A stretch of 64,000 nt of DNA from Flavobacterium sp. UBA2787. Its GTDB lineage: Bacteria; Bacteroidota; Bacteroidia; Flavobacteriales; Flavobacteriaceae. Of this stretch, positions 16,401 through 62,255 are shown piece by piece. The stretch's first letter is position 1, and every line of letters begins with the position of its first letter. The DNA is taken from positions 62,001 through 126,000 of the forward strand of contig DEHZ01000005.1 in the NCBI GenBank assembly GCA_002352205.1, read 5' to 3'. A model generated the notes under the pieces. That model had not been told where the DNA came from, ran no database searches, and saw only the letters and a program-made list of their open reading frames with translations. A program made the translations under genes and the position numbers.

Positions 16401-16432
16401 AATTTGTTGGAAACGTTACCCTTTACAGATAA
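4475..16432 (+). CDS. sprB: SprB-like giant gliding-motility adhesin, 3985 residues
   Basis: A signal peptide (1-27, ending AAYAQ) leads into a globular N-terminal region (about 30-380). A DUF11-like domain follows (about 383-482), then Ig-like segments (550-730) and roughly forty SprB-type repeats of 75-80 residues (about 740-3890), recognisable by C-x-G, GG-x-APY, AGxY and DxNGC words. The final ~85 residues (IPNFFTPNDDGDNDTW onward) are a CHU_C / T9SS type B sorting domain. In F. johnsoniae SprB is the mobile surface adhesin moved along the cell by the gliding motor. This protein is shorter than the ~6500-residue F. johnsoniae SprB but has the same plan and is flanked by PorP/SprF genes. 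Four copies of a ~239-residue super-repeat lie near the C-terminus. The assignment is from composition and context. Confidence 0.85.
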   Translation: MKTPQIPQLKTIFLLGCFLLINLAAYAQVPVPFTVRYERNLKGDMTLISNGIVNRQTNSNTPNDPYNTVGNSSEYNDNLNMRYIDIDGDPSTFSSSSASLILPASGCNKIVYAGLYWSATYRFNNGFSTSPGDGDNVRENDFNQVRLKLPGGTYQNITGQLIFDGFTNPDFIANSPYSCFADITSLVTSLANPEGEYTVANIRATQGQINGGGVSGGWTIFFVYENPTMTGKFITAYDGFAGVRATIGQTDISYSGFTTLPPPFPVRAKLASAALEGDNRITGDQLLFRADSNATFTALGNTLNVTNNFFNSRLTLNDTDFVDRVPNSLNTLGYDGDIITVANPLNNVIPNNETGATLRITSTQDTYFMFFNAFNIEVIEPDIKLVKTVEDLAGNDIGGADVNLGQFLDYVVTFQNVGNDDATNATIRDILPINTSFISVDLSGAPGVTFTHDPAFDELTFTLPNNLVEIGDPVYTIRIRVQVATTCSELEDACSNLIQNQAYATYRGVLNNNWISNDPSFAGLDSCGFGQPGPANFLVDIDDCIFENEAYLCGSDITLTAANGYETYTWFNSANEVIGNTQTITVSNVGTYTVVNTATPPCIGITQTFNVLLFGATQTNPVIPFADEVVICPNNGEQLPYIFLCGTNDSQLIQTGISDATSIVWEVLNETSCPPVGIDTCANNNPACSWNQVGTGANFNVTTAGQYRLTINYQDGCFTRFYFNVYTNLLDIQYVTTNILCNTPGSITITNLPSDYQFQLVDQMTGNILVPYQNNPVFTISDAGVYTVQVTQIGVTDGCVFELPNIGIQENNFQVNLIPQNTNCNGFGSIRVQATGAQPQYQFSITNPISATSGWVVDNDYTFNNLNPGTYTVTVVTEDGCSFTGTVTIEDENNLALVASISQNITCNQGNILVNPSGGQPPYSFAIYSYNGTLLNPTGADYQTSVIFDIEFGQQGTYVFIVVDANNCTALSNPVTIELVPNVQFTTTVQNINCFGQNDGSIIYNLTSSNGFQVSYQLLDENGNIISTNNSGIFNNLPAGDYTVVLVQSQGNRVCEFPTDFTITEPTPMTGVAEITENYTCITNAGTINIVPGSITGGTAPYQFSIDGVNFVSSSEFAGLTSGNYTIYIQDANGCIFTTNTISLVAPNQLTDLTFNATALTCPAQNATVTVTTVGGTAPFTYEIIAPAGQTVNNGTNPVFTGLTAGTYTFEVTDSNGCTYQETYTINPLPIIDVIGQTISNVVCFGASNGAVTFTVTNSNPYNYQIVNSSNAVVASANNSNLSTISLTGLTASTYTITITDTVTNCTDTTTAIVEAPSSALAFTFVANQISCNSNGSVIITAAGGWGSYQYQLTQPNGVVVGPQSNATFTNLTQAGTYTISVTDINGCVVSNTFNLTTPTNPVAVIASSSDLCFDANGATLVIAVTGGVVPYTYSINGNPSQNSNTFANLTPGSYTVIVTDANGCTSSVSQTIQPELTGDLSLTKGLDCTASPNAQISAAIAGGLAPFTYQVSFNGGAFGSSTNVVGTNFVYSTANAGNYQFLITDAQGCTFTSQTITVEPLTLPEITSVIELQGILCHGGNEGEIQINTNNAVGLAPFVLEVINTTTGVNYGTQTSGLTAGNYQITLTDANSCTDTASITLTEPNPIVFTIATVDITCNNPGGTSYGEIIVQGVAGGTAPYTYILNNNFGFIASYTPVTNENHSFQILNFGIYNVEVIDANGCVLLVDNIIIASPPSDLIIDVSTSTSDCVNGGTAVITVTSAVSSGSYEFAILETNVLPYSTNYQPSDVGTPETSTFTGLVPGVTYTFVVHDLVTDCYYFKTADTPINTPSNLTSVLDVVGNVSCTGSNDGFVNFTFDNYDATATSVSYEVFNSQSNISTGITGTSSPLGGPISVTNLGPLAPGIYYILFTENGGTLTGCSSASVPFTISQSTNLLQVTANVTRNDNCQNNRGRITATGQFGTAPYQYQLVIAGDPAPTVLTWAGSATNVFNVEGGNYVVYIRDANGCIQSAPVFVPTDPSPQISATVTNLCTAVQGDFTIEVTLTTAGIAPYTFSLNGGTFQAQTVPTFTYTNLNSGNYSIRVRDFNGCIHTVNLTIPAPLNLTPAITAQTSCANNDGIITVTPFGGSGTFTYELQNNVGGVIVAAQASPIFNGLASGNYVVVINDTTTGCSAQAPIELEPATPVTFTTVHNDVSCNGGNDGSITVTLPSSNDNPIYTYVLTDGVNAPISQNNGVFTGLAAGTYTITVTSARDCSLQEIIVIDEPALLTVAAIATDFACDPSNVVQTSTITATANFGTAPYVYSINGTNFFASNTFTIVDNGSVQNITVTVRDANNCLATTVVNINPLPTITAVTATTVTNLTCTNDGTVQISVTGGSGDFTFELLPLGSQPAITPGSGVFSAIFTLTEPGTYTFQVTDNETDCYFITAPYEIAPFDTIEATIINSSAVTCFGDTDGTITVNVLGYIGNVTYDVIDIQGNTVASGSGNTAINPFIVSGLSGGNYQVVVTATETPFCTAISNFAVVSSPSEPLVLTANETANVTCTNNLGEIFANATGGWGTYQYELVNNTTATTVQPFGANSLFTGLTAGNYTVSVQDAGGCLVSSTVILVQPSLISANLTSTNTNLLCNGDTDASVTAANVIGGQGTYQYILNTYDSTGTTIVTSSGGQTSPTFDGLGAGIYSITITDGWNCDFTSNIITITEPTSVIASLTLTSSLTCENDAVITVSASGGTAPYQYSTDGITFTNTTVYNVGPGTYQFFVRDANNCAVVQTNQITIETIPDLELNLNLNSANINCFGESTATIIANTTGGLGNYSYTLLDGANNIIAGPQSSGMFTNLPSGNYIVEVDSVDCNAVSSLIQITDPQELMISNLTVNNVLCNGGENGSVSIQTTGGTGTVQYAISPNLNQFFNNGTFNNLAPGNYDIIVQDQNGCFILLDIEITEPAPLVADVDLTTVVQNLCLGDNDGSFTVLITGGTAPYSTSLNNQDPGAFVEGQLSFSGLEGGTDYFIFVKDANGCETIAYIFLDAPVEVIPAIESVVYNCTGNVPGNIVTVSVNASAVGNVQYALDGGTYQASNVFVNVPAGNHTISVQHTNGCTKTVDVNIDDNQPLSATLSSVQNVLCNGDSTGSVTIDVTGGTGTIEYAISPNLTTFTTNNVFTNLAAGTYDIIVRDGIGCSLTEQVIITEPTVVTSSVSALVQELCTNDGNASITIAVNGGVAPYSTSLNDQTNFVANQFTYGNLTGGQTYIIFIQDANGCISSIPVTLDAPVTIIPTVDITYFCTGNVVGNTVTVSVNSEVVNDVTYSLDGGTYQTSPTFTNVPVGNHTISVQHTNGCIQTVNFIIDDIQPISVTISNVQNALCNGDSTGSVTINGTGGSGTIEYAISPNLTTFTTNNVFTNLAAGTYDIIVRDGIGCSLTEQVIITEPTVVTSSVSALVQELCTGDGNASITIAVNGGVAPYSTSLNNQNNFVANQFNYSNLTGGQTYTIFIRDANGCISSIPVTLDAPVTINPTVAVTYVCTGNVVGNAVTVSINSAVENDVTYSLDGGAFQTSATFNNVAVGNHNIRVRHSNGCEQQVQFTITPSTPVQAVFTKVDVTCHGESTGSFQVSAFGGSGQLEFAVSPNLTDFGANQTFTNLPAGNYTVIVRDEIGCTTQLNITINEPTSLDASLVTMFPDLCAGDNVGAIEIDINGGTAPYSTSLNNENNYTPNRVLFENLAGGQTYTIYVRDANGCVTTLQVAVDGGISISPGADVVYGCLGDSAFNTVTIKVMQNVESQVTYSLDGGAYQNGNVFTNLSNGNHSITVLHEDGCSETIGFTISNYIPITLTLTETYQNQFTATTTGGSGNYTYYLNGVDYGYNSVFQILATGTYTVVVRDENGCTAEAQIYIEFIDIDIPNFFTPNDDGDNDTWVPENLEGFPKARVEVFDRYGRIITQFGHKGEWDGTYNGSLLPTGDYWYTITLDGGRQFVGNVTLYR
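13115..15980 (+). repeat. Four-copy ~717-bp super-repeat in sprB
   Basis: A three-module unit (an LCNGD-type SprB repeat, an LCTGDGN-type repeat and a YxCTGN-type module) is repeated four times, starting near 13115, 13846, 14563 and 15280. Copies two and three are offset by 717 bp (239 codons) and almost identical in DNA; the outer copies are diverged but keep the same order. The unit is larger than one SprB repeat. Confidence 0.85.
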
Positions 16433-42110: not shown

Positions 42111-45100
42111 TTATTTTTTTACAATCTTTTTAATTTCTTTTTTGTCATCTACCTCTAGTTGAAGAATATAAAGTCCGCTTTGAAGATTAGACATATTTAT
42201 TTTTAAACCATTTAAAAGTCCGTTTTTAACCAATTTTCCATCTACTGAAAATAGTTTATAATCTACTGCTTTATATCCATGAACAATATACAATTCTTCA
42301 GAAACCGGGTTGGGATAAATATTAAATTGAAGAGCTGGAATTGGATCTACAATATCAAAAGTTTCTTGAATTCCTTTAATGCTAAAGTTATTGAATGTTA
42401 CTCGATTGCCATTATCTTGTGTCATGTTTTCTCCCTCAAAACGGAGACGAATTTTTAAGTTTGGATTATTATTCACTGCTTCAATTGAAGAAAAATCAAC
42501 TTCATATAATTGATACTCATCAGACAGGTCTAAAGAGGTTGAGATTAACCCATCAGTTGTCCAAATAGGCGTGTTTTCTGAAATTGAGTAATCAACCAAA
42601 ATAGCATCTGCAGCCTCTTCATCTTTGGCAGCAAAACCAAACAAAATATCTTGATAGCCAGAAGTTGAAAAGTCAAAAATCATTTGGTTTTCCAGGCCAT
42701 TCTGTTGAAAAGGTTGTTTTATTTGTAAACCACGCATATTGGCGGTTTCAAATGGTATATCATTGTTAGCTTCCGGAATATAGTTTAATTCGGTTGGACT
42801 ATTCCTGCGTTCCATGGATGCTTTTCTCCAATTTGGGTGAGTGTTGTCAAACGGATAGCCTTCTAAACACGACTCAAAAAGAAGTACTCCTTCTCCAGGA
42901 ATTTCAAATGAAGAATTGATTTCAATTAATGGAGTATCATTCGGAACAGCACTATCCATTACCCAAAAGTAAATAGGAACATCTTCTAGTTCTTCAGAAG
43001 CTACAAAATGAGCCGTAAGCTGAATGTTTGTGTTTGGAATGATTGTAATTTCCTCTTCCGGACTTATTGAAGCTCCGGACCAATGACTAAACACATAACC
43101 GGGTTTCGCAATGGCTTTTAATGTGATTGGAATGCTTTTAAAGTAAATTCCTAACCAAGGATAGGAATTTTCTTGAACACCAGGTGTTGCAGGAATGATT
43201 TCAATTGTATTGATTTTAACAAAACCGTGTTCTTCATCAGAAACATCTAATTGGACACCTAACGTTGATTCAATTTCAAATTTTTCCAAAATATGATTTC
43301 GTTGATGTATTGGTCTTTCGTTTGAAAATTCGATCATCACATCGATGTTAGAATTCCAAAACTCTAACGAGTTAATGGAATTCCAACGTTGTCCGTGTTC
43401 AATAATTTCTGCTTCTACACCACTTTTCATTTCGTTGATGATGCCTACCACACGTTCCGGTAAATAGGTTGTATTCATCAAATCAGCAAAACGATTGATA
43501 AAATTATTTTTGAAAGTAGTATTTTCAAGTAATTTTCGTAAAATTAGGGTTGACCATTCCGGATTTGTTGTTTCATCGCCACCGGTTGAAGTTGCAAAAG
43601 CTAAGGTGTTATGTTCATAAGATTGTGGTCCGCCATCGCCACCAAAACCAAAATCGGTGTCTTTTAGCACCCATCGCCATCTGCCGTCTTGGCCATGAGG
43701 AGCATCGGGTTCATATTGTTCGGTTCTTTTTCTCCAAAACTCGATGTTATTGTGCGGCCAATCCGTATTTCGGGCATAAATATTAGCAATAAAATGGTCG
43801 GCATAATTTTCCGTATCCATTTGTGTAGTAACATAATTAAAATTAGCAACGTTATTTAGATTATTACTTTCAATAAAATTCAACATAGCAGCATAATGTT
43901 CAAAATCACCTTCTTGAACCAAAAAACCATTGTATTCCAAGAAATCTAAGTCGCCATCTGCGATGTTGTAAACACGTTCGAAGTAATGACGATCAAAACG
44001 TTCTCTCATATTTAAAATTCCCCAATATTCCCCATTTAAAAAAGTAATTGTTGGTTGATAGGCTTGTGTGTCAAAATTTAAGTGATTAACTGTTCTTTGT
44101 ATAAATGCATCTCTAAAATAGGTTGAAGATAAATCATTTCCAGAATTTCTTAATATTAATCGTTTGAAACTTGAGTAAGATGAATTTTCAAAAAAAGTGT
44201 GATTAAAAGTGCTACTACCATATTCTGAACGAGCATATAAGCGAAGCGATTTATTTGGAGAAATTCTTGTAAAACCACCATTAATTCGTAAACCAATGTT
44301 TTGATTAATAATTTCGTTTCCATTCTTAAAAAAACTAAAGTGGGCTTTTTTTTCGGTTTCATCACCGCTCCTTTTATAATTTGCATCAGACCAAAGAGCA
44401 TTACCGTCAGGATTATTTGTCCGCCAATCGTCAAAATCTTTTCCGGCAACATATATTCCATTTTCATATTCAAAAAAATGCTCTTCATCCAAGCTGATAG
44501 AAACTACCGGAATAGAATAACGGTTTGATTCTTCGGGAGAAATAAAATAGGTTTTGGTTACTGTTTCACTAGAAAGAGAACCCTCTTTTATAGCTTTTGC
44601 TCTAATTACGGTTCCTTTAAAAACTGGAAAGTCTGGAGTATAAAAGGGATTTTGATGAAATGTGGAAGAAATTGAGGATATTTTGTTAGGTAATTCACTT
44701 CGATCAATCACTTCAATCGGATTTGTGTAAATCAAAGTGGAAAATGATTCTTCCAGCAATTCGCCTGTTTCTTGTCCGGGAAATTCTTCATACTGATTTT
44801 TGTAGAGGTATGATTTTCCTCCAAGATTTTCTGCCATTGGTTCAGACCCGTCGAGGGAATAAAGTATATTAACTTCTGGGTCGGGATGAGAAATTGTAAG
44901 TGTAAAACCATCAGTATAAAACCCTGAATTTACCGAAAATTGAGGGGCACTCAATTCATCAGCGGCACCTTCACTAGGGTTTAATGTCCCAGGCGTTGGT
45001 TCCTGAAAAATTAAAAAAGTTGATGAGCCACTTGGAGCCCTTCCGTATGAAAAATTTTGAGGGATAACAATGGCAGGAATTTGATCGGCAATAGTACCAT

Positions 45101-45464
45101 CTGGATATGTAAGTGAAATTGTTTCTCCGCCGGCACTGATAGCAAAATTGGTATGAAGTGGAAAATCGGGATTCGTTCTGTTTTTGTTAGAACACCAAAT
45201 TAGTAAGTGTTCTCCGGGCTGAATAGAATAATTAGGAAAAGTCCATTTAAAAAGGTTGTCATTGTCTGATAATCCGTAACCTAAAAGGTTAATGATTTCT
45301 GTTCCTGTGTTGTAGAGTTCTACCCAGTCTTCATAACTTCCATCATCATCTGTGTTAACGGTAGAATTAGATGTAATGATTTCGTTGATAACAATGTTTT
45401 GGGCTTCTACACTAAAAAACAAAAATAGTAAACTTACGAAAAAGATCGTTTTTTGTAATTTCAT
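42111..45464 (-). CDS. T9SS-secreted CotH kinase family protein
   Basis: 1117 residues. Order of parts: signal peptide (1-21); lamin-tail domain (about 23-130; VINEIITSNSTVNTDDDGSY, WVELYN); a chitobiase-type beta domain (about 185-215; YSLDGSEP); a CotH kinase domain (about 315-720) with the metal-binding VLKDTDFGFGGDGG near 600; an InlB-B-like repeat (about 805-850; PGYVFSHWSGA); a jelly-roll region; and a C-terminal T9SS type A sorting domain (about 1045-1117; FNIYPNPVSEELYI). CotH kinases phosphorylate proteins; this one would act outside the cell. It is convergent with rfbD and has its own promoter. Confidence 0.88.
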   Translation of the reverse strand: MKLQKTIFFVSLLFLFFSVEAQNIVINEIITSNSTVNTDDDGSYEDWVELYNTGTEIINLLGYGLSDNDNLFKWTFPNYSIQPGEHLLIWCSNKNRTNPDFPLHTNFAISAGGETISLTYPDGTIADQIPAIVIPQNFSYGRAPSGSSTFLIFQEPTPGTLNPSEGAADELSAPQFSVNSGFYTDGFTLTISHPDPEVNILYSLDGSEPMAENLGGKSYLYKNQYEEFPGQETGELLEESFSTLIYTNPIEVIDRSELPNKISSISSTFHQNPFYTPDFPVFKGTVIRAKAIKEGSLSSETVTKTYFISPEESNRYSIPVVSISLDEEHFFEYENGIYVAGKDFDDWRTNNPDGNALWSDANYKRSGDETEKKAHFSFFKNGNEIINQNIGLRINGGFTRISPNKSLRLYARSEYGSSTFNHTFFENSSYSSFKRLILRNSGNDLSSTYFRDAFIQRTVNHLNFDTQAYQPTITFLNGEYWGILNMRERFDRHYFERVYNIADGDLDFLEYNGFLVQEGDFEHYAAMLNFIESNNLNNVANFNYVTTQMDTENYADHFIANIYARNTDWPHNNIEFWRKRTEQYEPDAPHGQDGRWRWVLKDTDFGFGGDGGPQSYEHNTLAFATSTGGDETTNPEWSTLILRKLLENTTFKNNFINRFADLMNTTYLPERVVGIINEMKSGVEAEIIEHGQRWNSINSLEFWNSNIDVMIEFSNERPIHQRNHILEKFEIESTLGVQLDVSDEEHGFVKINTIEIIPATPGVQENSYPWLGIYFKSIPITLKAIAKPGYVFSHWSGASISPEEEITIIPNTNIQLTAHFVASEELEDVPIYFWVMDSAVPNDTPLIEINSSFEIPGEGVLLFESCLEGYPFDNTHPNWRKASMERRNSPTELNYIPEANNDIPFETANMRGLQIKQPFQQNGLENQMIFDFSTSGYQDILFGFAAKDEEAADAILVDYSISENTPIWTTDGLISTSLDLSDEYQLYEVDFSSIEAVNNNPNLKIRLRFEGENMTQDNGNRVTFNNFSIKGIQETFDIVDPIPALQFNIYPNPVSEELYIVHGYKAVDYKLFSVDGKLVKNGLLNGLKINMSNLQSGLYILQLEVDDKKEIKKIVKK

Positions 45465-45550: not shown

Positions 45551-45558
45551 TATCTTTG
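45551..45558 (+). promoter_or_regulatory. -7 box ahead of the six-gene glycan module
   Basis: TATCTTTG, an exact TAnnTTTG match, 31 bp before the first ATG, with a T run at the -33 distance (45520-45531). It faces away from the CotH promoter. Confidence 0.6.
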
Positions 45559-45589: not shown

Positions 45590-46519
45590 ATGAGTTTAAA
45601 CAAAATATTGGTAGGTTATTCAGGTTTTGTTGGGTCAAATCTTATTGATCAAACCCGCTTCGACGGAATTTTTAATTCTTCAAATATAGAAGATTCATTT
45701 GGTTGTAAATCTGATATATTAATATATTCTGGTGTAAGAGCAGAAAAGTTTTTGGCAAATAGCCAACCCGAAAAAGACTTTGAAATCATCAAAACTGCAA
45801 TAGAAAACATCAAGAAAATAGACTCAAAAAAGCTAATTTTAATTTCTACAGTAGATGTTTATCCAATTCCACAATTAGTTCATGAAAATAGCCTAATTGA
45901 ATATGAAAGTAATCAAGCTTATGGCAAAAACAGACTATATTTAGAGCGATGGGTTGAAGAAAACATAGAAGATTATCTTATTGTTAGATTACCCGCATTA
46001 TTTGGAAAAAACCTTAAAAAGAATTTTATTTATGATTTAATCCATATAGTTCCAGCAATGTTATCTGAGCAAAAGTTTTTAGAATTAGCCATAACAAATC
46101 AATGGATTAATGATTATTATACAAAACAGGAGAATGCTTTTTATAAACTTAATCCAATTTCTGCAGATGAAAAAGAGCAATTAAAAGAGCAGTTTTTAAG
46201 TATAAATTTTTCAGCACTTAATTTTACGGATAGTCGAAGCATTTTTCAGTTTTATAATTTGAACCATTTATGGAGTGATATTTCAATGGCATTACAAATG
46301 GGAATTAAAAAATTGAATTTAGCCACAGAGCCCATTTCGGCAAATGAAATTTATGAATCTGTATTCGGCAAAAAGTTTAAAAATGAAATAGCAATAAATC
46401 CACCACATTACAATTTTCATTCAATACATGCTATAAAATTTAATGATTCTGAAAAATACATTCGAAATAAAGAATCACTCTTAAATGATATTCAATTATT
46501 TATTAAGGAGAACAAATAA
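45590..46519 (+). CDS. NAD-dependent epimerase/dehydratase-like protein (SDR)
   Basis: 309 residues. The nucleotide-binding turn is VGYSGFVGSNLID (GxxGxxG), followed by ILISTVDVYPIP and an active-site-like YGKNR. In standard SDR enzymes this is YxxxK; here the position of the lysine is arginine (Tyr111, Arg115), so the chemistry may differ. It probably acts on a nucleotide sugar. Its TAA overlaps the next ATG (TAATG). First gene of a tightly coupled module. Confidence 0.75.
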   Translation: MSLNKILVGYSGFVGSNLIDQTRFDGIFNSSNIEDSFGCKSDILIYSGVRAEKFLANSQPEKDFEIIKTAIENIKKIDSKKLILISTVDVYPIPQLVHENSLIEYESNQAYGKNRLYLERWVEENIEDYLIVRLPALFGKNLKKNFIYDLIHIVPAMLSEQKFLELAITNQWINDYYTKQENAFYKLNPISADEKEQLKEQFLSINFSALNFTDSRSIFQFYNLNHLWSDISMALQMGIKKLNLATEPISANEIYESVFGKKFKNEIAINPPHYNFHSIHAIKFNDSEKYIRNKESLLNDIQLFIKENK

Positions 46520-47310
46520 TGAAACTATCAATATCTAATATAGCATGGTCTGCTGAAGAAGATTTTGAAATGTATGATTTTTTAAAAAAAGTCAATTTTT
46601 CAGGTTTAGAAATAGCTCCAACAAGAATTTTTCAGGAGAATCCTTATGAAAAATTAAACGAAGCTACAGAATTTTCCATGCGGTTAAAAAAAACATACCA
46701 ACTTGAAATTTCATCAATGCAGTCCATTTGTTTTGGAAAAAATGAAGCAATTTTTAGTTCTGAGGAAGAGCGAAAATTAATTTCAGATTATATAAAAAAA
46801 TCAATAGATTTTGCCCAATCCATAGGTTGTAAAAATTTAGTTTTTGGCTCACCCAAAAATAGAGTTATTGGGGAAAATCAAAATCAAATTGCAATAGATT
46901 TCTTTAAAGAACTGGGCAATTATGCTACTTCTAAAGACACAATTTTAGCTCTCGAACCTAATCCGGAGATATACGGTACTAATTTTATTAACACAACAAA
47001 TCAAGCTTTTGATTTTGTCAAACAAATTGATTCAGACGGATTAAAGGTTAATTTTGACTTTGGAACATTTTTATATAATGAAGAGAAGTTGAATGACATT
47101 GAAAAAAATATCCAGTGGATAAATCATATTCACATTAGCGAACCTTATTTGGAACTCATACAAAAAAGAGAAATTCATGAGGAATTAATCAATATGTTAA
47201 TCAAAAATGAATACACCAATTATGTTTCCATTGAAATGAAAAATTTGAATTCATTAGAATCAGTTAAAAACACAATTCTTTATTTAAAACAATTATCAGA
47301 TGCTTCATAA
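46519..47310 (+). CDS. Sugar phosphate isomerase/epimerase (xylose-isomerase-like TIM barrel)
   Basis: 263 residues, an AP-endonuclease-2/xylose-isomerase-like barrel. Likely metal ligands lie in ILALEPNPEIYG, LKVNFDFGTFLYN, HIHISEPYLELI and YVSIEMKN. It overlaps the upstream stop by 1 bp and the downstream GT2 start by 11 bp. Substrate unknown; beside the SDR it may help make an unusual sugar. Confidence 0.82.
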   Translation: MKLSISNIAWSAEEDFEMYDFLKKVNFSGLEIAPTRIFQENPYEKLNEATEFSMRLKKTYQLEISSMQSICFGKNEAIFSSEEERKLISDYIKKSIDFAQSIGCKNLVFGSPKNRVIGENQNQIAIDFFKELGNYATSKDTILALEPNPEIYGTNFINTTNQAFDFVKQIDSDGLKVNFDFGTFLYNEEKLNDIEKNIQWINHIHISEPYLELIQKREIHEELINMLIKNEYTNYVSIEMKNLNSLESVKNTILYLKQLSDAS

Positions 47311-48091
47311 AGCCATCAAGGGTGTTCCAAATTTTGAATCAAATGAATTTGAATCAAAAAAAACAAAGTACTGTTTGTGTATTCCTATTATTAACGAAGG
47401 AGATCGAATTTTAAAACAACTTCAACGAGCCAAAGAGTTTGATATTCATAATTTGGTTGATATTATTCTGTGTGACGGTGGTTCTACTGATGAATCAATG
47501 GAGCATGAAAGATTAAAAAAACTAGGAGTGAACACACTACTGGTAAAAAAAGATTTTGGTAAACAGGGAGCTCAACTCCGAATGGGATTTTGGTTTGCTT
47601 TAGAAAGAGGTTATGAAGGTATTGTGACCATTGACGGCAATAATAAAGACAGTATAGAATCGGTTCCTTTGTTTGTAGACAAACTGAATCAAGGTTTTGA
47701 TTTTGTTCAAGGTTCACGTTATTTAAAGGGTGGAAATGCAATAAATACACCATTAATAAGGCATTTGGCGGTAAAATTCATACACTCTCCAATAATATCC
47801 CTGACGGCAAAGCACCGATTTACAGATTCTACGAATGCTTTTCGCTGTTATTCCAAAAACTATTTATCACACCCTAAAGTACAGCCTTTTCGGGATGTAT
47901 TTGTAACTTATGAATTGTTGGCTTATTTGTCAGTAAGAGCCACGCAGCTGGGATTAAAAGTAGCTGAAGTACCAGTTACAAGAAGTTATCCAAAAACTGG
48001 GAAAACACCCACCAAAATTAGTTTTTTTAAAGGAAATGGTAACTTAATTAAAATATTAATCAAAAATTTTAAAGGAGATTATAACCCATGA
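47300..48091 (+). CDS. Glycosyltransferase family 2
   Basis: 263 residues with a GT-A fold: CIPIINEGDRILKQL, the LCDGGSTDESM nucleotide motif and TIDGNNKDS where a DxD metal motif is expected (DGN here). Later FTDSTNAFRCYS matches polyprenyl-phosphate-type GT2 enzymes. No membrane helix. It overlaps the next ORF by 4 bp (ATGA). It likely transfers a sugar to a polyprenyl phosphate or growing glycan. Confidence 0.85.
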   Translation: MLHKAIKGVPNFESNEFESKKTKYCLCIPIINEGDRILKQLQRAKEFDIHNLVDIILCDGGSTDESMEHERLKKLGVNTLLVKKDFGKQGAQLRMGFWFALERGYEGIVTIDGNNKDSIESVPLFVDKLNQGFDFVQGSRYLKGGNAINTPLIRHLAVKFIHSPIISLTAKHRFTDSTNAFRCYSKNYLSHPKVQPFRDVFVTYELLAYLSVRATQLGLKVAEVPVTRSYPKTGKTPTKISFFKGNGNLIKILIKNFKGDYNP

Positions 48092-51000
48092 AAATAATGC
48101 TTTTAGAAAATATTCGTCAAAAATTTAATCAACATCCACTATTTGTTAAATCATTACTAGTGTTTAGTTTCTTTTGTTCTTTTTTGATAAACGCTCCGTT
48201 TTTGAATAGTATTTTAGAATTTAAACCTGCAATTTCTAATTTTTCAAATCATATAATTTCAAATGCGGCATTGCATAATTTTGATATTTCTTCGCGGGTA
48301 AGACTTTATTATTTTGTGTTTTTTAGTTTGGTTTTGATAACTGTTTTTTTCTTTTCAGTATTTTTTTATTTTGTTAATAAACGTTTTGTTAATCCAACTT
48401 TAGATAAACGTATTCTCAAAAAAATTGAACAGATATCTATCGTAGGAATAGCTTCTGTTTTAACAAGTTTATTTTTTGTAGAGTTAGATTTAGCGGAACT
48501 TTTTATAGTATTTCTAGGATTTTATTTTTTCTTTTTCTCAAAAGAAACAGCAAATAACACATTTAATAATGGATTATGGACTTTAATTACAAGTATTCCT
48601 TTTGCTTACTTGCTTTATAGAATTATTAAGTCCAATGGTATTTTTAAAATACTTCCTGAAACCATACTAATAAAAAATATTCCACTTCCGGTTTCAGCTG
48701 ATTTATTGGTGTTCTTTTCTGTTTTTTTTATAATTTCGGCTATACTTCATTTTATTTTAGTAAAAAAATTTAAATCTAACAATTATAATTCTCAAGAGGA
48801 AGTTCAAAGCTATAAACGATTTTATTTAGCAACCATTCCTCTATCAGTGATAATAATTGCTTTTTCAATATCATTAGAAATTTTCAATATAATTAACCTT
48901 AAAACTAATTATGTTTTTAATAAACCAAAAGAATTATTTGCAGTAATTGCTATTCTCGGAATTATAATTTCTATGCTTTATTATCGTTTTTTGAATAAAA
49001 GAAAACATTCTAAATTAATTCTTTTTGATCCAATTGAAAAATATCATTTTCCTTTACTTATTATAAGTCTGGCTTTTATGATTTCGCAACCATGGCGAAT
49101 GTTTGGGCCTGAAAATGAATTTTTTGAGTTTGCAAATCATGGAATATCTGTAGACCATTTTTTTAGATACGGGAGTATTCCTATTATTGAGACATTTGAT
49201 GCTCATATGTTGTCAAATCAACTATTTGCCTATGTTTTTGGGTTGTTAAATGGATATGAGCCTTGGTCTCCTTTTTTATACTCAAGCTATATCTTTATAT
49301 TCATTTATTTGTTGGTTTATTTCTTGTTAAAAAGGATTTTAGGAGGGTTTTATGCATTTATTTTATTGCTATGTTTTCCTATGTTAAGTGTTGTCATTTC
49401 TAGTTTTATATTTAGCGGAATTATCGCATTACAATTATTTTCATTGTTTAATAATAAAGCGAACAAACGATTTTACTGGTTTTGGGGCTCAATAATTTTT
49501 CTTTGTATGTATAGATTAGACTTAGGATTTGCTTCTGCAATGGCGGGAATCGTAAGTTATTTTCTAATTCATTTTCTTGCTCAAAAATCTTATCAACTTA
49601 AATCATTCTTAAAAACCGGAGCGATTAGTATAGCTGCAACTGTACTTTTATTTGTTGTGTTGTGTTTGTTTAAAGGCATAAACCCAATCTCCCGCTTACT
49701 GGAACTTTTAACTACTGCCATGTCCAATCAAAATTGGGCTTATGAAGATTTGGGTAACACTACACACGTTCTTTTCCGATTAACGTATTATATTTTACCT
49801 GTTTTAACTCTGTTTTTACTAGCAAATACAATTTTAAAGCGAATAATTGTTAAATCGTATTTTCATAAAATTATTGAAAACAAATCACAGTTAGCAGCTT
49901 TAATTTTTTTCGTTTTCTTTAGTTTAGTTTTTTATTTTAATATTCCTCGCGGAATTGTTAGGCATAATTTTTTGTTTAACAATGTAGTCATTATCACGAG
50001 TACAATCCCACTGGCTCTAATATGTTATATTTATATATTTAAGAGAAAAAATAATCTTTTATATTTTCTTTCCACTTTAATCATAAGTTATTTTATAATC
50101 AACTTAACAACACTTTTATTTCAAAATAAAAGCCGAAGTTATTTTAAAGAGGCTTTTGCGTCTGCTCCCTTTAACGAAAAATTCCAACCATCTTATGCAT
50201 TTAATAGTACCAGAATTAGTGAAACTTTTAGCTTAGCAGAAGTAAAATACTTTAAGGAGATTTTAGATAAATTATTACATAAAGATGAAACGTATTTTGA
50301 TTTTTCTTCTACGAATTATTATCACGCATTAGTTGGGAGAAAAAATCCATTATATGTTAATCAGACTCCGTTACTTCTTAACGGGGACAGATCACAAGAT
50401 TTCGCATTGGAACAATTAAAAAAAGCTAAAATCCCAATAATATTAATGCCCAATAAAGAAAATATTTGGCATCAAATTGACGGCATTCCTGTTGAATATA
50501 AATATTATAAAATTTCAGAATACATAAATGAAAATTATTCACCATTTTTAAAGTTAAAAGATTTTACCATTTATGTCGAAAATCAAAAAATTCAAACCTA
50601 TAAAAACAAATTAAATATAAGCTCAAACCAGAGTTTCGCTATTAATGATTTTTCTCAAAAAAATATCGAACAAATACAAAAAAACGACATAGTAGTAGAA
50701 ACCAATGAAACCAATCATCTAGTTTTAACAAAAAACGGAAACGACGCTTTTATCTTCGGACTTTATAAGTCGAATCAAAGTAAGGATTCCGTTTATCAAA
50801 ACAATCCAAAAACTATAAAAGTAAAAATTGAAGCACTATCTATTGGTTCAGTTCAATTATATTATTGGCTTAGTGGTGAAGAATATTTTTCAGAAGAAAA
50901 TTCAAAAACATTTCAAATTCCATCACTAGGAAACTATGAGTTTGAAGTAAATACACCAACTTCTATTGAAGATGTTAGAATTGATGTTGATGCTTCTAAA

Positions 51001-51735
51001 ATCATTTTGAATCAACTAACAATTCAAAATAGGGAAACAGAACTTATAACAAATAGTGAAACTCTGAATTACAATTTAGGTGAAATACCTATGGTTTGGG
51101 GCGAACTAGCTGATCAAAAATTATTTAAATCGGTTGCTAAGTTCAATGACGTTTTAAATCAGAATAATGTCATTTTACAGCTAGATCCAAATACTCCAAA
51201 AAACAAGCCTTATTATTTATTTGTTGAAATGGAGTCAGACACAATTCAAGCAGCAACAGTAAGCATATTTGATGATAAGAACAATAAAAAACTGGAATAT
51301 CTATTCAGGTCAAATCAGGGAAAACATAGTTATGCTATACGACTAAGCTCAAACATTCACTGGTGGAATGAAAAAATTTCTAAGATCAGTATGACCACAG
51401 AAAAACCATTAAAAATAAGTAAGTTTGCTTTGATATCAGAAGATGGAAAAAGTACGTTTTCATTAAAAGACACTGATTTTTATCTAAGTAATATTACTGA
51501 TGAGAATTGGTCTGGAGGCGTAGGAATTCCCTTTAATGTAGTATTAATGGATAATTCACAACGAACTTTGAGCAAGCTTAAAACCCATAAAAAAATCGAA
51601 ATGAGCAGTGGAGAGGTTATCAACATAACGAAATATTGGAACACAGGTAATTTTATTCATGTAGAAATTGCAGAGCCTTTAGAAACTTATCGTTCAAAAA
51701 TAGCCTACCCCAATAATTTTAAATTCATTAAATAA
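48088..51735 (+). CDS. Giant polytopic membrane protein with large C-terminal extracytoplasmic part (GT-C-like)
   Basis: 1215 residues. About fifteen membrane helices fill residues 18-680, including a conserved acidic loop near 345-375 (ENEFFEFANHGISVDHFFR) that recalls GT-C glycosyltransferases using a lipid-linked donor. From ~690 to the end it is soluble: an alpha/beta region (about 715-835), beta-rich domains (870-1000 and 1020-1125), and a final module (1133-1215; LSNITDENWSGG) that is also found alone in the nearby lipoprotein. The gene is translationally coupled to the upstream GT2. I do not recognise the family with certainty. The role is probably transfer of a sugar outside the inner membrane. 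Confidence 0.6.
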   Translation: MKIMLLENIRQKFNQHPLFVKSLLVFSFFCSFLINAPFLNSILEFKPAISNFSNHIISNAALHNFDISSRVRLYYFVFFSLVLITVFFFSVFFYFVNKRFVNPTLDKRILKKIEQISIVGIASVLTSLFFVELDLAELFIVFLGFYFFFFSKETANNTFNNGLWTLITSIPFAYLLYRIIKSNGIFKILPETILIKNIPLPVSADLLVFFSVFFIISAILHFILVKKFKSNNYNSQEEVQSYKRFYLATIPLSVIIIAFSISLEIFNIINLKTNYVFNKPKELFAVIAILGIIISMLYYRFLNKRKHSKLILFDPIEKYHFPLLIISLAFMISQPWRMFGPENEFFEFANHGISVDHFFRYGSIPIIETFDAHMLSNQLFAYVFGLLNGYEPWSPFLYSSYIFIFIYLLVYFLLKRILGGFYAFILLLCFPMLSVVISSFIFSGIIALQLFSLFNNKANKRFYWFWGSIIFLCMYRLDLGFASAMAGIVSYFLIHFLAQKSYQLKSFLKTGAISIAATVLLFVVLCLFKGINPISRLLELLTTAMSNQNWAYEDLGNTTHVLFRLTYYILPVLTLFLLANTILKRIIVKSYFHKIIENKSQLAALIFFVFFSLVFYFNIPRGIVRHNFLFNNVVIITSTIPLALICYIYIFKRKNNLLYFLSTLIISYFIINLTTLLFQNKSRSYFKEAFASAPFNEKFQPSYAFNSTRISETFSLAEVKYFKEILDKLLHKDETYFDFSSTNYYHALVGRKNPLYVNQTPLLLNGDRSQDFALEQLKKAKIPIILMPNKENIWHQIDGIPVEYKYYKISEYINENYSPFLKLKDFTIYVENQKIQTYKNKLNISSNQSFAINDFSQKNIEQIQKNDIVVETNETNHLVLTKNGNDAFIFGLYKSNQSKDSVYQNNPKTIKVKIEALSIGSVQLYYWLSGEEYFSEENSKTFQIPSLGNYEFEVNTPTSIEDVRIDVDASKIILNQLTIQNRETELITNSETLNYNLGEIPMVWGELADQKLFKSVAKFNDVLNQNNVILQLDPNTPKNKPYYLFVEMESDTIQAATVSIFDDKNNKKLEYLFRSNQGKHSYAIRLSSNIHWWNEKISKISMTTEKPLKISKFALISEDGKSTFSLKDTDFYLSNITDENWSGGVGIPFNVVLMDNSQRTLSKLKTHKKIEMSSGEVINITKYWNTGNFIHVEIAEPLETYRSKIAYPNNFKFIK

Positions 51736-51738
51736 AAC

Positions 51739-52860
51739 ATGAACCAAAAATTTGATAAAATTATTATTGGTGCCGGAATTTACGGACTTTATGCTGCCAA
51801 ATATTGTGGAGAAAAAGGCGAAAAAGTACTTGTTTTAGAATTTGATGATGATCCGTTTAAAAGAGCAACATATATCAATCAAGCAAGAGTTCACATGGGT
51901 TATCACTATCCGAGGTCGTATACAACCGCGACAAAATCAGCGGGTTATTATGATCTTTTTCATAATGATTTTAATTTTTCTATAAAAGATGACTTTGATA
52001 AGATATATGCTATCTCGAAAAATTTTTCGTGGACCAATTCGAAACAATTTATAAAATTTTGTTCAGATTCAAACATTCCTTGTAAACCGGTAAATACTTC
52101 CGATTATTTTAAAGAAGATTTAATTGAAGGTTCTTTTTTGAGTAAAGAATGTACTTATGATGCTAAAATGATTGGAAATCATTTTATGTCTGCATTAGAT
52201 AAAATGGAAAATGTAACAGTTCTTTTTAACGCTAGAATAAAAAAAATAATAAAGAATGAATCAAGTTATCTAATTGAAACAGAAGATTATAATTTCTTTG
52301 AAGCCGAATTTGTTCTGAACGCAACGTATGCATCAATTAATCAAATTTTGGAGGAATTAAATTTTGAAAAAGTCGACATAAAATATGAATTATGCGAGAT
52401 TATACTTTGTCAAGTTAGTGAATCATTAAAAAATGTTGGAATAACAGTAATGGATGGTCCATTTTTTTCACTAATGCCATTTGGTAAAACAGGGTTACAT
52501 TCACTAACGGCAGTTTCTCAAACACCGCATAAAACAAGTTTTGATATATTGCCTACCTTTGATTGCCAAGAGCAAAGTAACAACACATGTAGCCCAAAGC
52601 GATTAGGTAATTGCAATAGCTGTATAGCTAGACCAAAATCTGCATGGCAATATATGAGTGGAATGGCAAAAAAATACTTAAAAGATGGAGTAGAAATAAA
52701 ATATGTTGAGTCTTTGTTTTCAATTAAGCCGATATTAAAAGCTTCTGAAATCGATGATTCAAGACCAACAATAATAAAGAAGCACAGTATAAATCCAACT
52801 TTTATTTCGGTTTTATCCGGAAAAATTAATACTGTTTACGATTTAAATGAAATTTTATAA
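51739..52860 (+). CDS. FAD-dependent oxidoreductase with cysteine cluster
   Basis: 373 residues. FAD site IIIGAGIYGLYAAKYCGEKG at the N-terminus, then ARVHMGYHYPRS, a segment seen in DadA-like oxidoreductases of glycan loci. Four cysteines at 276, 284, 292 and 295 (Cx7Cx7CxxC) could bind a metal or Fe-S cluster. The stop overlaps the next start (TAATG). It probably oxidises a sugar or its lipid-linked form; the substrate is not known. Confidence 0.75.
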   Translation: MNQKFDKIIIGAGIYGLYAAKYCGEKGEKVLVLEFDDDPFKRATYINQARVHMGYHYPRSYTTATKSAGYYDLFHNDFNFSIKDDFDKIYAISKNFSWTNSKQFIKFCSDSNIPCKPVNTSDYFKEDLIEGSFLSKECTYDAKMIGNHFMSALDKMENVTVLFNARIKKIIKNESSYLIETEDYNFFEAEFVLNATYASINQILEELNFEKVDIKYELCEIILCQVSESLKNVGITVMDGPFFSLMPFGKTGLHSLTAVSQTPHKTSFDILPTFDCQEQSNNTCSPKRLGNCNSCIARPKSAWQYMSGMAKKYLKDGVEIKYVESLFSIKPILKASEIDDSRPTIIKKHSINPTFISVLSGKINTVYDLNEIL

Positions 52861-53798
52861 TGGGAACGCTTAGTAAAGAAAAAAAATTAGTTTCTGCAGT
52901 AATATATCTTCATAATGACGAAGATCGTATTGTTGAATTTTTAAAAACAGTTATTCAAGTTCTCAAAAATAATTTTGAAAGCTTTGAAATTATAATTGTA
53001 AACGACTGTTCATATGATGATTCTGTAGAAAGGATGAAGAATGATGAACTTCTTAAAAAATTTAATGTTTCTATTGTAAATATGAGTATCCGACAAGGAT
53101 TAGAAGTTTCAATGACAGCTGGCATCGATTTATCTATGGGTGATTTTGTTTATGAGTTTGACGACCTAACTCTCGATTATGATGAACATTATATTATGAA
53201 AGCCTATCATCATATTGTTTCAGGTTTTGATATAGTTTCTGTAGCTCCTACTAAAGATAATTCATTGTTGTCCGGTTTTTTTTATAAAATTTTTAATAAC
53301 TATTCAAAAAGCAGATACAAACTTCGTTCAGAACGATTTCGAATTTTGTCAAGACGAGCAATTAACAGAGCATATTCTATCAGCAAAGCAATTCCATACA
53401 GAAAAGCTTTATATGCAAATAGCGGTTTAAAAATGGATTCACTTGCTTACACTCAAAAGAGGCTTTTAGATTTTAAAAGCACAAAAGAGAAAAGTGTTTT
53501 CAGAAATAAAATGGCTTTGAATTCTATTATTATCTACACTAATTTAGCTTTCCAAATTGCAATAGGTATTACCTTTTTATTGTTTAGTATTACGCTTTTT
53601 TCAGGAATTTATGCCTTTATAGTTTATTTCAGTGATCAAAAACCTATTGAAGGATGGACAACAACCATGCTTTTAATGTCGAGTAGTTTCTCAGGACTGT
53701 TTTTTATACTAGCAATAATAATAAAATATTTGTCGCTAATAGTAGAATTGATTTATAGTAAAAAGACTTATTTAGTTGAGTCGGTTGACCGTATTTGA
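52860..53798 (+). CDS. Glycosyltransferase family 2 with C-terminal membrane helices
   Basis: 312 residues. GT2 features: SAVIYLHNDEDRIVEFL, EIIIVNDCSYDDSVERM and YEFDDLTLDYDEHY at the DxD position. Two C-terminal membrane helices (about 221-252 and 263-292) make it resemble the GtrB/ArnC polyprenyl-phosphate glycosyltransferases, which load a sugar onto the lipid carrier. It is the last gene of the coupled module and fits as donor maker for the giant GT-C-like protein. Confidence 0.82.
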   Translation: MGTLSKEKKLVSAVIYLHNDEDRIVEFLKTVIQVLKNNFESFEIIIVNDCSYDDSVERMKNDELLKKFNVSIVNMSIRQGLEVSMTAGIDLSMGDFVYEFDDLTLDYDEHYIMKAYHHIVSGFDIVSVAPTKDNSLLSGFFYKIFNNYSKSRYKLRSERFRILSRRAINRAYSISKAIPYRKALYANSGLKMDSLAYTQKRLLDFKSTKEKSVFRNKMALNSIIIYTNLAFQIAIGITFLLFSITLFSGIYAFIVYFSDQKPIEGWTTTMLLMSSSFSGLFFILAIIIKYLSLIVELIYSKKTYLVESVDRI

Positions 53799-53882
53799 TT
53801 TTTTAAAAAACTATTGAAAATCAAATGGATAAAAGAAAAAATAATAGTATTGGAAAATAGTTGTCAAAATAATTTTTCAATT

Positions 53883-53945
53883 GAAAAAAAGAAATATTTT
53901 TGCACTGAAAAAAAGAAATATTTTTTGCACTGAAAAAAAGAAATA
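53883..53945 (+). repeat. Tandem 24/25-bp promoter duplication ahead of the lipoprotein gene
   Basis: GAAAAAAAGAAATATTTTTG plus CACT occurs at 53883-53906, again at 53907-53931 with one extra T, and partly at 53932-53945. Each full copy carries a TATTTTTG-type -7 box; only the first has the exact TAnnTTTG spacing. Confidence 0.85.
53895..53902 (+). promoter_or_regulatory. -7 box in the first promoter copy
   Basis: TATTTTTG, an exact TAnnTTTG match, 45 bp before the lipoprotein ATG. The second copy (53919-53927) has one extra T and may be weaker. Confidence 0.55.
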
Positions 53946-53947
53946 AA

Positions 53948-54304
53948 ATGAAAAAATTAATTTACATAGTTTGTTTAATAGTAATTGTTGGTTGTAAAGA
54001 AGAAGTTAAAAAAGAAACAAATTCACCAATAGTTGAAGATGAAAAAACAATCGTTTTGAGTAATTATTCAGACGAGAATTGGAATAATGGAGTGGCAATT
54101 GAATTGAATATGTTCTTGGTTGATCTTACAGATACTAATCGGGAGTTATTAAAAGATATTAAAGAGTTGGAATTAGTTGATGGAACAATTGTAAAAGTTA
54201 CCGGAACTACTGTTGCAGATCCCTTTATTCAAATAAATACGGAAGAAAAAGCAGATTTGTACAAAGAAAAAGCATCGTATCCTAATGTTATTTTTATTAG
54301 ATAG
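53948..54304 (+). CDS. Lipoprotein sharing a module with the giant membrane protein's C-terminus
   Basis: 118 residues. A lipoprotein signal ends in IVGC with Cys16 as the lipidated residue. After a short linker, residues 37-118 (LSNYSDENWNNGVAIELN ... KASYPNVIFIR) align end to end with residues 1133-1215 of the 1215-residue protein encoded 2 kb upstream; LSN-xx-DENW-xx-GV and the YPN-xx-FI end are shared. A small envelope binding or assembly domain is plausible. It has its own doubled promoter and a terminator. Confidence 0.75.
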   Translation: MKKLIYIVCLIVIVGCKEEVKKETNSPIVEDEKTIVLSNYSDENWNNGVAIELNMFLVDLTDTNRELLKDIKELELVDGTIVKVTGTTVADPFIQINTEEKADLYKEKASYPNVIFIR

Positions 54305-54327: not shown

Positions 54328-54352
54328 AGCCACCTTATTGGTGGCTTTTATT
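54328..54352 (+). terminator. Terminator after the lipoprotein gene
   Basis: AGCCACC and GGTGGCT pair perfectly around TTATT and are followed by TTTATTTTAT. Confidence 0.85.
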
Positions 54353-61271: not shown

Positions 61272-62255
61272 ATGAAAAGAATACTAATAACAGGAGCAGC
61301 CGGATTTTTGGGCTCGCATCTTTGTGACCGTTTTATCGCGGAAGGATATTATGTTATCGGAATGGATAATTTAATTACCGGTGATTTAAAAAATATTCAA
61401 CATTTATTCAAAGAGAAGAATTTTGAATTCTATCACCACGATGTTACAAAATTTGTATTTGTTCCCGGTAAATTAGACTATATTCTTCATTTTGCATCAC
61501 CAGCTAGTCCGATTGATTATTTAAAAATTCCTATTCAAACTCTAAAAGTAGGGTCATTAGGAACACACAATCTGCTTGGTTTAGCTCGTGTAAAAAGAGC
61601 AAGAATTCTAATTGCTTCCACTTCTGAAGTGTATGGAGACCCACTAATTCATCCACAAACAGAGGAATATTACGGAAACGTGAATACTATTGGACCCAGA
61701 GGAGTGTATGACGAAGCTAAACGCTTTCAAGAATCAATCACAATGGCATACCACACTTTTCATGGTTTAGAGACTAGAATTGTCCGAATTTTTAACACCT
61801 ATGGTCCAAGAATGCGATTAAACGATGGTCGTGTAATTCCGGCATTTATTGGCCAGGCTCTTCGTGGAGAAGATTTAACTATTTTTGGTGACGGAATGCA
61901 AACCCGATCTTTTTGTTATGTAGATGATCAAGTAGAAGGAATTTACAGACTACTTTTATCAGATTATAATTTGCCGGTAAACATTGGAAATCCAGACGAA
62001 ATCACTATCAAGGATTTTGCAGAAGAAATTATAAAACTAACAGGAACAAAGCAAAAAGTGGTTTATCTCCCTTTACCAATAAACGATCCTTTACAAAGAC
62101 AACCGGATATTACAAAAGCTAGGGAAATACTAGGATGGGAACCAAAAATTTCTCGATCAGAAGGGATGAAAATCACTTATGATTATTTTAAAACCCTTTC
62201 AACCGATGAACTTTTAAAAGAAGAACATAAAGACTTCTCAGGATTCATTCATTAA
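61272..62255 (+). CDS. UDP-glucuronate decarboxylase (UDP-xylose synthase)
   Basis: 327 residues, SDR fold. NAD site [16 protein letters not shown], the decarboxylase-typical [24 protein letters not shown], and [11 protein letters not shown] holding the YxxxK pair. It turns UDP-glucuronate into UDP-xylose. It is not a dTDP-glucose dehydratase, so it does not fill the missing rfbB step. It starts 1 bp after the ligase-like gene. Confidence 0.9.

Follow-up and report, generated by a model that had tools for sequence, protein, structure and literature searches.

A conserved gene set of Flavobacterium sp. UBA2787, recurring on plasmids and in part in viral contigs, as a candidate mobile module for glycan modification

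The 64,000-nucleotide (nt) stretch analysed here (the window; contig DEHZ01000005.1 of Flavobacterium sp. UBA2787, positions 62,001 to 126,000) carries at 45590–53798 of its forward strand six open reading frames (ORFs) lying head to tail. Their products are, in order, a short-chain dehydrogenase/reductase-like protein (SDR), a TIM-barrel protein, a soluble family 2 glycosyltransferase (GT2s), a membrane protein of 1215 residues (the giant), a flavin adenine dinucleotide (FAD) oxidoreductase and a membrane GT2 (GT2m). We propose that these genes form a mobile glycan-modification module, in which the FAD, SDR and TIM-barrel enzymes (the trio) would make a sugar that is linked to a lipid and transferred outside; we give this reading a probability of roughly 0.6. 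Modification of a glycan by way of a lipid-linked sugar is very probable and the trio as the maker of that sugar only slightly less so. For an oxidise–epimerise–reduce chemistry the chances appear about even.

The six ORFs encode 309, 263, 263, 1215, 373 and 312 amino acids (aa), as given in a preliminary description of this DNA made from the sequence alone. Its range of junctions was also confirmed at both extremes, an 11-nt overlap between the TIM-barrel and GT2s genes (47300–47310) and a 3-nt gap between the giant and FAD genes (51736–51738). The remaining junctions are overlaps of 1 nt (SDR/TIM barrel, 46519; FAD/GT2m, 52860) or 4 nt (ATGA, GT2s/giant, 48088–48091). All six genes of the proposed set are present, but a seventh had been missed, at 53948–54304 on the same strand, which encodes a small lipoprotein-like protein homologous to the C terminus of the giant.

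Within the genus, 4 of 299 genomes gave a match to the giant and 4 of 298 to the FAD family, and the four carriers are identical. Because these genomes are related, they do not represent four independent events. The complete order, SDR-TIM-GT2s-giant-FAD-GT2m-lipoprotein, is kept in locus L012, and in L010 together with an extra pair of GT2 and PMT_2 genes. Locus L011 and L003, a contig of a metagenome-assembled genome (MAG), start inside the set and keep the rest in order; the FAD frame of L003 contains one stop, at residue 98. In the family, the giant was detected in 1 of 397 genomes, the one studied here.

Outside the phylum, the sampling comprised plasmids, a phage collection, viral contigs and one genome-contig scan with the giant (one MAG). 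The FAD protein was found on 12 plasmid records (26.7–34.3% identity) and GT2s on ten (47.7–52.2%). Seven of the 12 FAD-bearing records were inspected, all proteobacterial. In each of them SDR, TIM barrel, FAD and GT2s lie in one run of genes, with a GT2s 48–52% identical to ours, and a GT2m relative was located at the expected place (by tblastn in three and by hidden Markov model in four, E 5.5e-14 to 2e-07). GtrA is annotated in five of these modules and the Psychrobacter one (L034) has an SMR-family protein, as judged by Pfam. A candidate GT-C glycosyltransferase gene accompanies five of the seven: that of Cereibacter (L030) is fused and Pfam-supported, those of L031, L032, L034 and L035 are unannotated and were picked out by position and by eye. 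PMT_2 scored above cut-off in the L030 fusion and in the L010 protein. In alignment A8, examined for the accompanying GT-C transferase, W, D and E are invariant in six rows.

The arrangement in Azospirillum (L029), SDR-TIM-GT2s-FAD-GT2m, is that of Flavobacterium minus the giant. On the 10.8-kb Psychrobacter plasmid pA22P4 (L034) the module is the sole cargo besides replication and mobilisation genes. Contig L046, deemed prophage-like because phage tail genes and S24 repressor genes are present, shows at 6925–13619 the order GT2m-FAD-SDR-TIM-(SMR-like, by eye)-GT2s, and on its other strand a relative of the Cereibacter GT-C gene (tblastn 7e-46); carriage there suggests lysogenic surface conversion. 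The order SDR-TIM-GT2s-FAD also appears on L043, a scaffold of 4 kb from human faeces with the label bacteriophage, where the scaffold end cuts the FAD gene. Several of the genes are also found fused: GT2s with a PMT_2 GT-C enzyme in Cereibacter (L030), GT2m with GT2s in Psychrobacter (L034) and FAD with SDR in viral contigs L070 and L076. These fusions tie FAD to SDR, GT2m to GT2s and GT2s to a GT-C enzyme.

A conserved gene neighbourhood, the first check proposed in the preliminary description, was therefore found: the same four of about 298 genus genomes and the seven inspected plasmids keep the set. A random assortment of genes was rejected on the shared carriers in the genus and the recurrence on plasmids. 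One could still expect ordinary O-antigen genes to be adjacent by chance, given that, by eye, rml genes lie upstream of the module and Wzx/Wzy/GT4-like genes downstream. This explanation is contradicted by the same set on seven plasmids of other classes and on one prophage-like contig, and we hold it to be extremely improbable.

The SDR-like NAD(P) oxidoreductase (45590–46519, forward strand, 309 aa; Pfam Epimerase, 6.2e-07) carries Ser86-Tyr111-Arg115, that is YxxxR, with an Arg at the Lys position of the classical SDR motif Tyr-x-x-x-Lys. This replacement of the catalytic Lys had been pointed out before and is a property of the whole family: Tyr111 and Arg115 occur in 41 of 42 aligned rows, the remaining one having a gap, and Ser86 in 40. 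What role a YxxxR SDR plays is a question raised by this conservation. Compared with solved structures, the family profile retrieved only dTDP-4-dehydrorhamnose reductase, at the limit used.

The second member of the trio is a xylose-isomerase-like TIM barrel, a putative keto-sugar epimerase/isomerase (46519–47310, forward strand, 263 aa; PF01261, 1.8e-20). An E-D-H-E metal site is the mark of the AP_endonuc_2 keto-sugar epimerases, and it is kept in every non-gap position of a 25-row alignment (E146 and D180 in 25 rows; H205 in 22, with 3 gaps; E239 in 21, with 4 gaps). The nearest solved relatives of the family profile are ketose 3-epimerases (3.9e-12), and it also matched a 3-keto-D-glucoside 4-epimerase (PDB 6wn6, 2.4e-8).

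The third, a DAO-type FAD oxidoreductase (51739–52860, forward strand, 373 aa; PF01266, 7.8e-08), has R50, H52, G54, Y57 and R59 in all 31 aligned rows. The extra Cys cluster noted earlier is real (C292/C295) but optional, being present in 7 of the 31 rows. As a catalytic feature it was dropped, since most rows and the seven proteobacterial FAD proteins compared do not have it. Next to the FAD gene, L017 has an aldo-keto reductase and L045 a Gfo/Idh/MocA gene, such as an oxidation/reduction pair would allow. Distances in the SDR, TIM-barrel and FAD families correlate (Mantel r 0.58–0.74, p 0.0001, 24 taxa), which partly reflects shared clades. Judged from sequence, the conserved residues fit an oxidise–epimerise–reduce route to a rare activated sugar.

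Alternatively, the product of the trio might be no sugar but a small decoration of the glycan, such as a polyol or a hydroxy or keto acid. The closest solved match of the FAD family profile is indeed L-alpha-glycerophosphate oxidase (6.7e-10), and NCBIfam matches below cut-off relate the TIM barrel to hydroxypyruvate isomerase and the FAD protein to glycerol-3-phosphate and L-2-hydroxyglutarate oxidases; a cytidylyltransferase-like gene after the TIM barrel in L087 points the same way. However, the best matches of the TIM family are ketose epimerases and the trio is frequently in the company of sugar transferases (DPM-like GT2, GT-C, beta-glucosyltransferase, small GT2 proteins), which makes a non-sugar product improbable.

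GT2s (47300–48091, forward strand, 263 aa) resembles dolichol-phosphate mannose (DPM) synthases, its closest solved relatives (DPMS, 2.4e-11), and is a probable polyprenyl-phosphate sugar synthase. Where DxD is expected, D-G-N is found in 10 of 10 rows. GT2m (52860–53798, forward strand, 312 aa; PF00535, 1.5e-12) is GtrB/ArnC-like, with two C-terminal hydrophobic segments and an overall resemblance to GtrB (5eke, 6.9e-30). Its DxD is degenerate: by eye the canonical motif is absent from eight aligned rows (EFD in Flavobacterium) and from five alphaproteobacterial rows. By sequence, both proteins resemble GtrB/DPM-like polyprenyl-phosphate sugar synthases, with non-canonical motifs. The loading of the lipid had been attributed to the membrane GT2. 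We would reassign it: GT2s is more likely the loader, since a DPMS is its best solved match and it is fused to a PMT_2 GT-C enzyme in Cereibacter, whereas GT2m, by eye, has no canonical DxD in the aligned rows. Whether GT2m serves GT2s as a membrane subunit without catalysis of its own is a question that follows.

The giant (48088–51735, forward strand, 1215 aa) is GT-C-like by anatomy only. Hydropathy delineates 14 hydrophobic segments followed by a soluble tail of about 537 residues, and a conserved region includes E347, N350, P365 and H373. For comparison, enzymes of the GT-C superfamily have 7–13 transmembrane helices and a catalytic loop that follows an early helix. No match was obtained in Pfam (E up to 1), NCBIfam (0.01) or PDB (E up to 1), and a wider profile against PDB gave two chance-level matches only (0.27 and 0.52). 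By this anatomy, and without profile support, the giant is likely a member of the GT-C superfamily, and it is probably the GT-C enzyme of the module.

Of 198 genomes of the class, ten contain the giant or a relative, its own and nine others, and the relatives align up to residue 1119 at most. In the six of these loci inspected (14–19 kb each) none of the other module genes was seen, and in five of them the giant-family protein stands beside a GT9-like gene (by eye; Pfam for L037 and L040). The giant-family and GT9-like genes of other Bacteroidia (L037–L041) appear as a separate recurring pair. A distant relative, 21% identical over residues 307–1119, is a hypothetical protein of a Lawsonia plasmid (L033, 7967–11236). 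As far as these loci tell, the giant is not a universal transferase: GT-C-like proteins of other kinds accompany the module elsewhere, and members of the giant family exist where the module does not.

One may ask whether the giant is an independent membrane protein for surface glycans whose gene was inserted between those of GT2s and FAD, leaving transfer to another GT-C enzyme or to the O-antigen machinery. In L043 and L029 the GT2s gene directly adjoins the FAD gene, the relatives in other Bacteroidia stand beside GT9-type genes and not in the module, L010 has an extra GT2 and a PMT_2 protein inside the module, and no profile links the giant to GT-C. Nevertheless, the giant shares its four carriers among about 298 genomes with the FAD protein, holds a fixed place in L003, L010, L011 and L012, and is accompanied by a lipoprotein with its terminal domain. 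We thus consider such a separate role unlikely and retain the giant as the candidate transferase of the Flavobacterium module.

The terminal domain, of about 88 residues (51463–51732, forward strand), was recognised by homology to the downstream lipoprotein and is called here DENW, a name coined in this analysis. The lipoprotein (53948–54304, 118 aa, lipoprotein-like start by eye) is made of this domain and is homologous to giant residues 1128–1210 (E 7.8e-10). Its gene occupies the same place in L003, L010, L011 and L012. DENW could be aligned across 11 copies. Since the PMT_2-family protein of relative G211 (L010, 13907–14179) also terminates in it, this small domain is shared by the tails of two kinds of membrane protein and by a free-standing small protein. 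Of 148 phylum-sample genomes, only its own contained it, and it gave no plasmid match and no Pfam match above cut-off; three PDB matches (E 0.79–0.86) were taken as chance.

From these elements we infer the following route, including the direction of the chemistry, its substrate and product. In the cytoplasm, the FAD enzyme would convert one hydroxyl group of an activated sugar into a keto group by oxidation. The TIM-barrel enzyme would epimerise or isomerise the adjoining carbon via a metal-bound enediolate, and reduction of the ketone by the SDR would yield a rare activated sugar, in the simplest case a nucleotide sugar with inverted configuration at two adjacent carbons. GT2s, anchored to the membrane through the GtrB-like GT2m with its two helices, would move this sugar to polyprenyl phosphate. 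A flippase would then turn the lipid-linked sugar over, GtrA or SMR elsewhere and perhaps the downstream Wzx-like protein in Flavobacterium. Finally, a GT-C enzyme, the giant in Flavobacterium, would add the sugar to a surface glycan, its soluble C-terminal half and DENW domain holding the acceptor; a DENW domain is present in the lipoprotein too. The outline drawn earlier, of sugar making, lipid loading and transfer outside, fits the conserved set in these inferred steps, with GT2s as the likely loader and a giant that is not universal.

The trio is also found in viral contigs, none of them from cultured phage. A viral scan with the SDR profile gave 48 loci, and three from the FAD scan brought the number to 51, among which L054 duplicates L044 and L066 duplicates L046. 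Fifty of the 51 contain the SDR and were grouped at 70% identity into 31 clusters: 14 with FAD, SDR and TIM barrel, 4 with FAD and SDR, and 13 with SDR only. In 12 of the 18 FAD-bearing representatives, the stop-to-stop frames of SDR and FAD are fused, overlap or are separated by no more than 5 nt; in the other 6, 439–3203 nt separate them. Viral scans with GT2s and with the giant returned nothing useful, and a second viral scan with FAD only two contigs already found. A 'phages' collection, searched with GT2s, FAD, two viral-contig SDRs and one viral-contig FAD, yielded only MT839812, an unverified metagenomic scaffold.

Neighbours were examined in ten viral loci (L044, L060, L065, L070, L075, L080, L083, L085, L087 and L091), the survey leaving out L063, L069, L071, L074, L076, L079 and L088. 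In eight of the ten a glycosyltransferase lies nearby, scoring above the curated Pfam cut-off (barely in L087) or strongly in PHROG (L075 and L083, whose genes also match a PHROG named DNA methyltransferase). Glycosyltransferase matches were only sub-threshold in L080. L065 has no glycosyltransferase nearby; a C5 DNA methylase and a dCMP deaminase were found instead, and its T4-type UvsX and DnaB-like helicase indicate genuine phage surroundings at least for this locus. In L044, a contig of 386 kb, FAD-SDR-TIM is directly followed by a gene of the T4 beta-glucosyltransferase family (5.7e-15; PHROG 4.5e-39) and preceded by genes of the thymidylate-synthase and thymidylate-kinase families. GT2s was not found in L044, and among the SDR-scan loci checked it occurred only in L066 (the L046 contig).

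Two further viral loci carry genes of related interest. In L045, a 145-kb viral contig, the FAD gene beside Gfo/Idh/MocA lies near a cytidylyltransferase and NeuB (7163–13829), that is, among nonulosonic-acid-like genes. In L087, which represents a cluster of 10 loci, the cytidylyltransferase-like gene after the TIM barrel is at 7765–8208.

These viral arrangements bear on the level at which the trio acts. It could edit a sugar already on the lipid, as DprE1/DprE2 do: GT2s would make a polyprenyl-P-sugar, FAD and SDR, with the TIM barrel, would epimerise it, and GtrA or SMR would flip it. Several modules do combine FAD, SDR, GtrA or SMR and a GT-C candidate. On the other hand, the L044 trio stands with a T4-type beta-glucosyltransferase, the T4 enzyme using UDP-glucose as donor, and GT2s occurs in L066 alone among the loci checked. 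In addition, the FAD protein is DAO-type (PF01266) and not VAO-type, the type of FAD oxidase to which DprE1 belongs. In viral contigs the trio is accompanied by small GT2 or beta-glucosyltransferase genes, GT2s being absent, and this speaks for a nucleotide sugar, rather than a lipid-linked one, as its substrate. Lipid-level editing was dropped as first choice for these phage operons without GT2s and we regard it as quite unlikely, although the same logic, with an SMR exporter and a GT-C enzyme bearing a carbohydrate-binding module, is described in PMC11127046.

Several observations weigh against a trio-made, lipid-linked sugar handled by one mobile module. The 13 SDR-only viral clusters, of 31, have neither FAD nor TIM barrel in the available stretch. 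The structure model of the FAD protein is weak (mean predicted local distance difference test, pLDDT, 64.3; predicted template modelling score, pTM, 0.68). The trees of the trio are congruent only in part: SDR and TIM barrel of Psychrobacter (L034) are near those of viral contigs L065 and L069 and its FAD is elsewhere, a grouping that hints that phages and bacterial modules have exchanged genes. Few genomes of the phylum samples carry these families, FAD being present in 2 of 247 genomes (its own and G726) and GT2s in 1 of 395, a draw that may not include the three other carriers. No convincing GtrA/SMR relative was detected in the window or in the Flavobacterium loci, a single match (E 0.099) being in L017. 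On the plasmids, L030 and L032 give weak GT2m matches, and a different glycosyltransferase of L032 scores higher. The GT-C candidates of L031, L032 and L034 gave no PMT_2 match at E up to 1, that of L046 stays under the Pfam cut-off, and Azospirillum (L029) and Ruegeria (L036) have no annotated GT-C gene beside the set, in gene tables that are incomplete. As for the giant, its GT-C-like anatomy agrees with the outside transferase first proposed, but it does not occur in every module, its comparison with a PMT_2-type GT-C profile gave a probability of 5, and neither sequence nor profile searches connected it with a known GT-C family.

As stated in the preliminary description, no named pathway combining these parts was found in the literature searched, and neither was a paper tied to this gene set. 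By analogy, the module may operate as the three-component Gtr and pentofuranose systems do, the trio being new. Three-component systems are one route by which bacteria and prophages alter surface antigens. With Gtr (GtrA, GtrB, GtrC) the module shares a relative of polyprenyl-phosphate sugar synthases, a GtrA or SMR protein in most other members, a GT-C candidate, and carriage on plasmids and a prophage-like contig. It differs by the added FAD, SDR and TIM barrel and by having a soluble GT2 in addition to a membrane-bound one whose DxD is degenerate; in Flavobacterium there are also an unrelated giant and a lipoprotein, GtrA not being found in its loci.

The general scheme, lipid loading, flipping and GT-C transfer, is laid out in PMC11127046. 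The pentofuranose systems described there (Citrobacter O1/O2, GT136) likewise have a lipid-linked donor, a flippase, a GT-C enzyme with an extra soluble domain and an auxiliary epimerase. Their loader, however, is a synthase dependent on phosphoribosyl pyrophosphate (PRPP) and their epimerase a single SDR with YxxxK, where the module has a DPM-like GT2, a trio and YxxxR; no PRPP-dependent polyprenyl phosphoribose synthase was matched among the module genes in Pfam or NCBIfam. The authors of PMC11127046 state that they are aware of no epimerases in O-antigen side-chain systems apart from those for pentofuranose.

The mycobacterial DprE1/DprE2/Rv3789/Emb system also combines FAD and SDR enzymes, a small flippase and a GT-C enzyme with a carbohydrate-binding domain. 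It departs from the module in its PRPP-derived donor and its flavoprotein family, and we know of no TIM-barrel enzyme in it. YcjQ/YcjR/YcjS of E. coli act in a catabolic setting with NAD-dependent redox steps. They pair two dehydrogenases with a 3-keto-glucoside isomerase (PMC11543891), following the same three-step logic, and have no glycosyltransferase module; the primary work, as cited there, names in its title the interconversion of D-gulosides to D-glucosides. DNA modification by T4 beta-glucosyltransferase is approached by L044, where the gene of that family lies directly 3′ of the trio; T4 itself is, to our knowledge, without such a trio.

A redox-epimerase trio that accompanies such mobile modules in Bacteroidota and Proteobacteria, and is met again in viral contigs, suggests a sugar whose genes have not yet been assigned, and it provides sequence markers for the search for that sugar. 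Its single occurrence beside a DNA glucosyltransferase relative (L044) leads to a broader and more speculative proposal, which we think somewhat unlikely: FAD-SDR-TIM would be an undescribed sugar-tailoring pathway common to cells and phages, serving surface glycans through the plasmid- or prophage-borne three-component module and, in some large phages, the glycosylation of their own modified DNA bases.

Concerning expression, a promoter-like −7 element, TATCTTTG, was read at 45551–45558 (forward strand), 5′ of the first ATG, and resembles the Bacteroidota −7 consensus. It makes the single promoter suggested earlier plausible only, since a sigma-70 scan gave the motif no statistical support, with 55 generic matches and a shuffle mean of 54.6. 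A terminator-like hairpin and T-tract (54328–54346, forward strand) lies 3′ of the lipoprotein gene and is weak evidence alone, because such sites are expected by chance (2 in the region, shuffle mean 2.9). A short tandem repeat was seen by eye at 53880–53945 of the window, in the gap 5′ of the lipoprotein gene. A 1117-residue protein whose domains are CotH, lamin-tail and Por secretion-tail is encoded on the reverse strand (42111–45464), in the interval separating the rml genes from the module, and an ORF of 3985 residues occupies 4475–16432 of the window.

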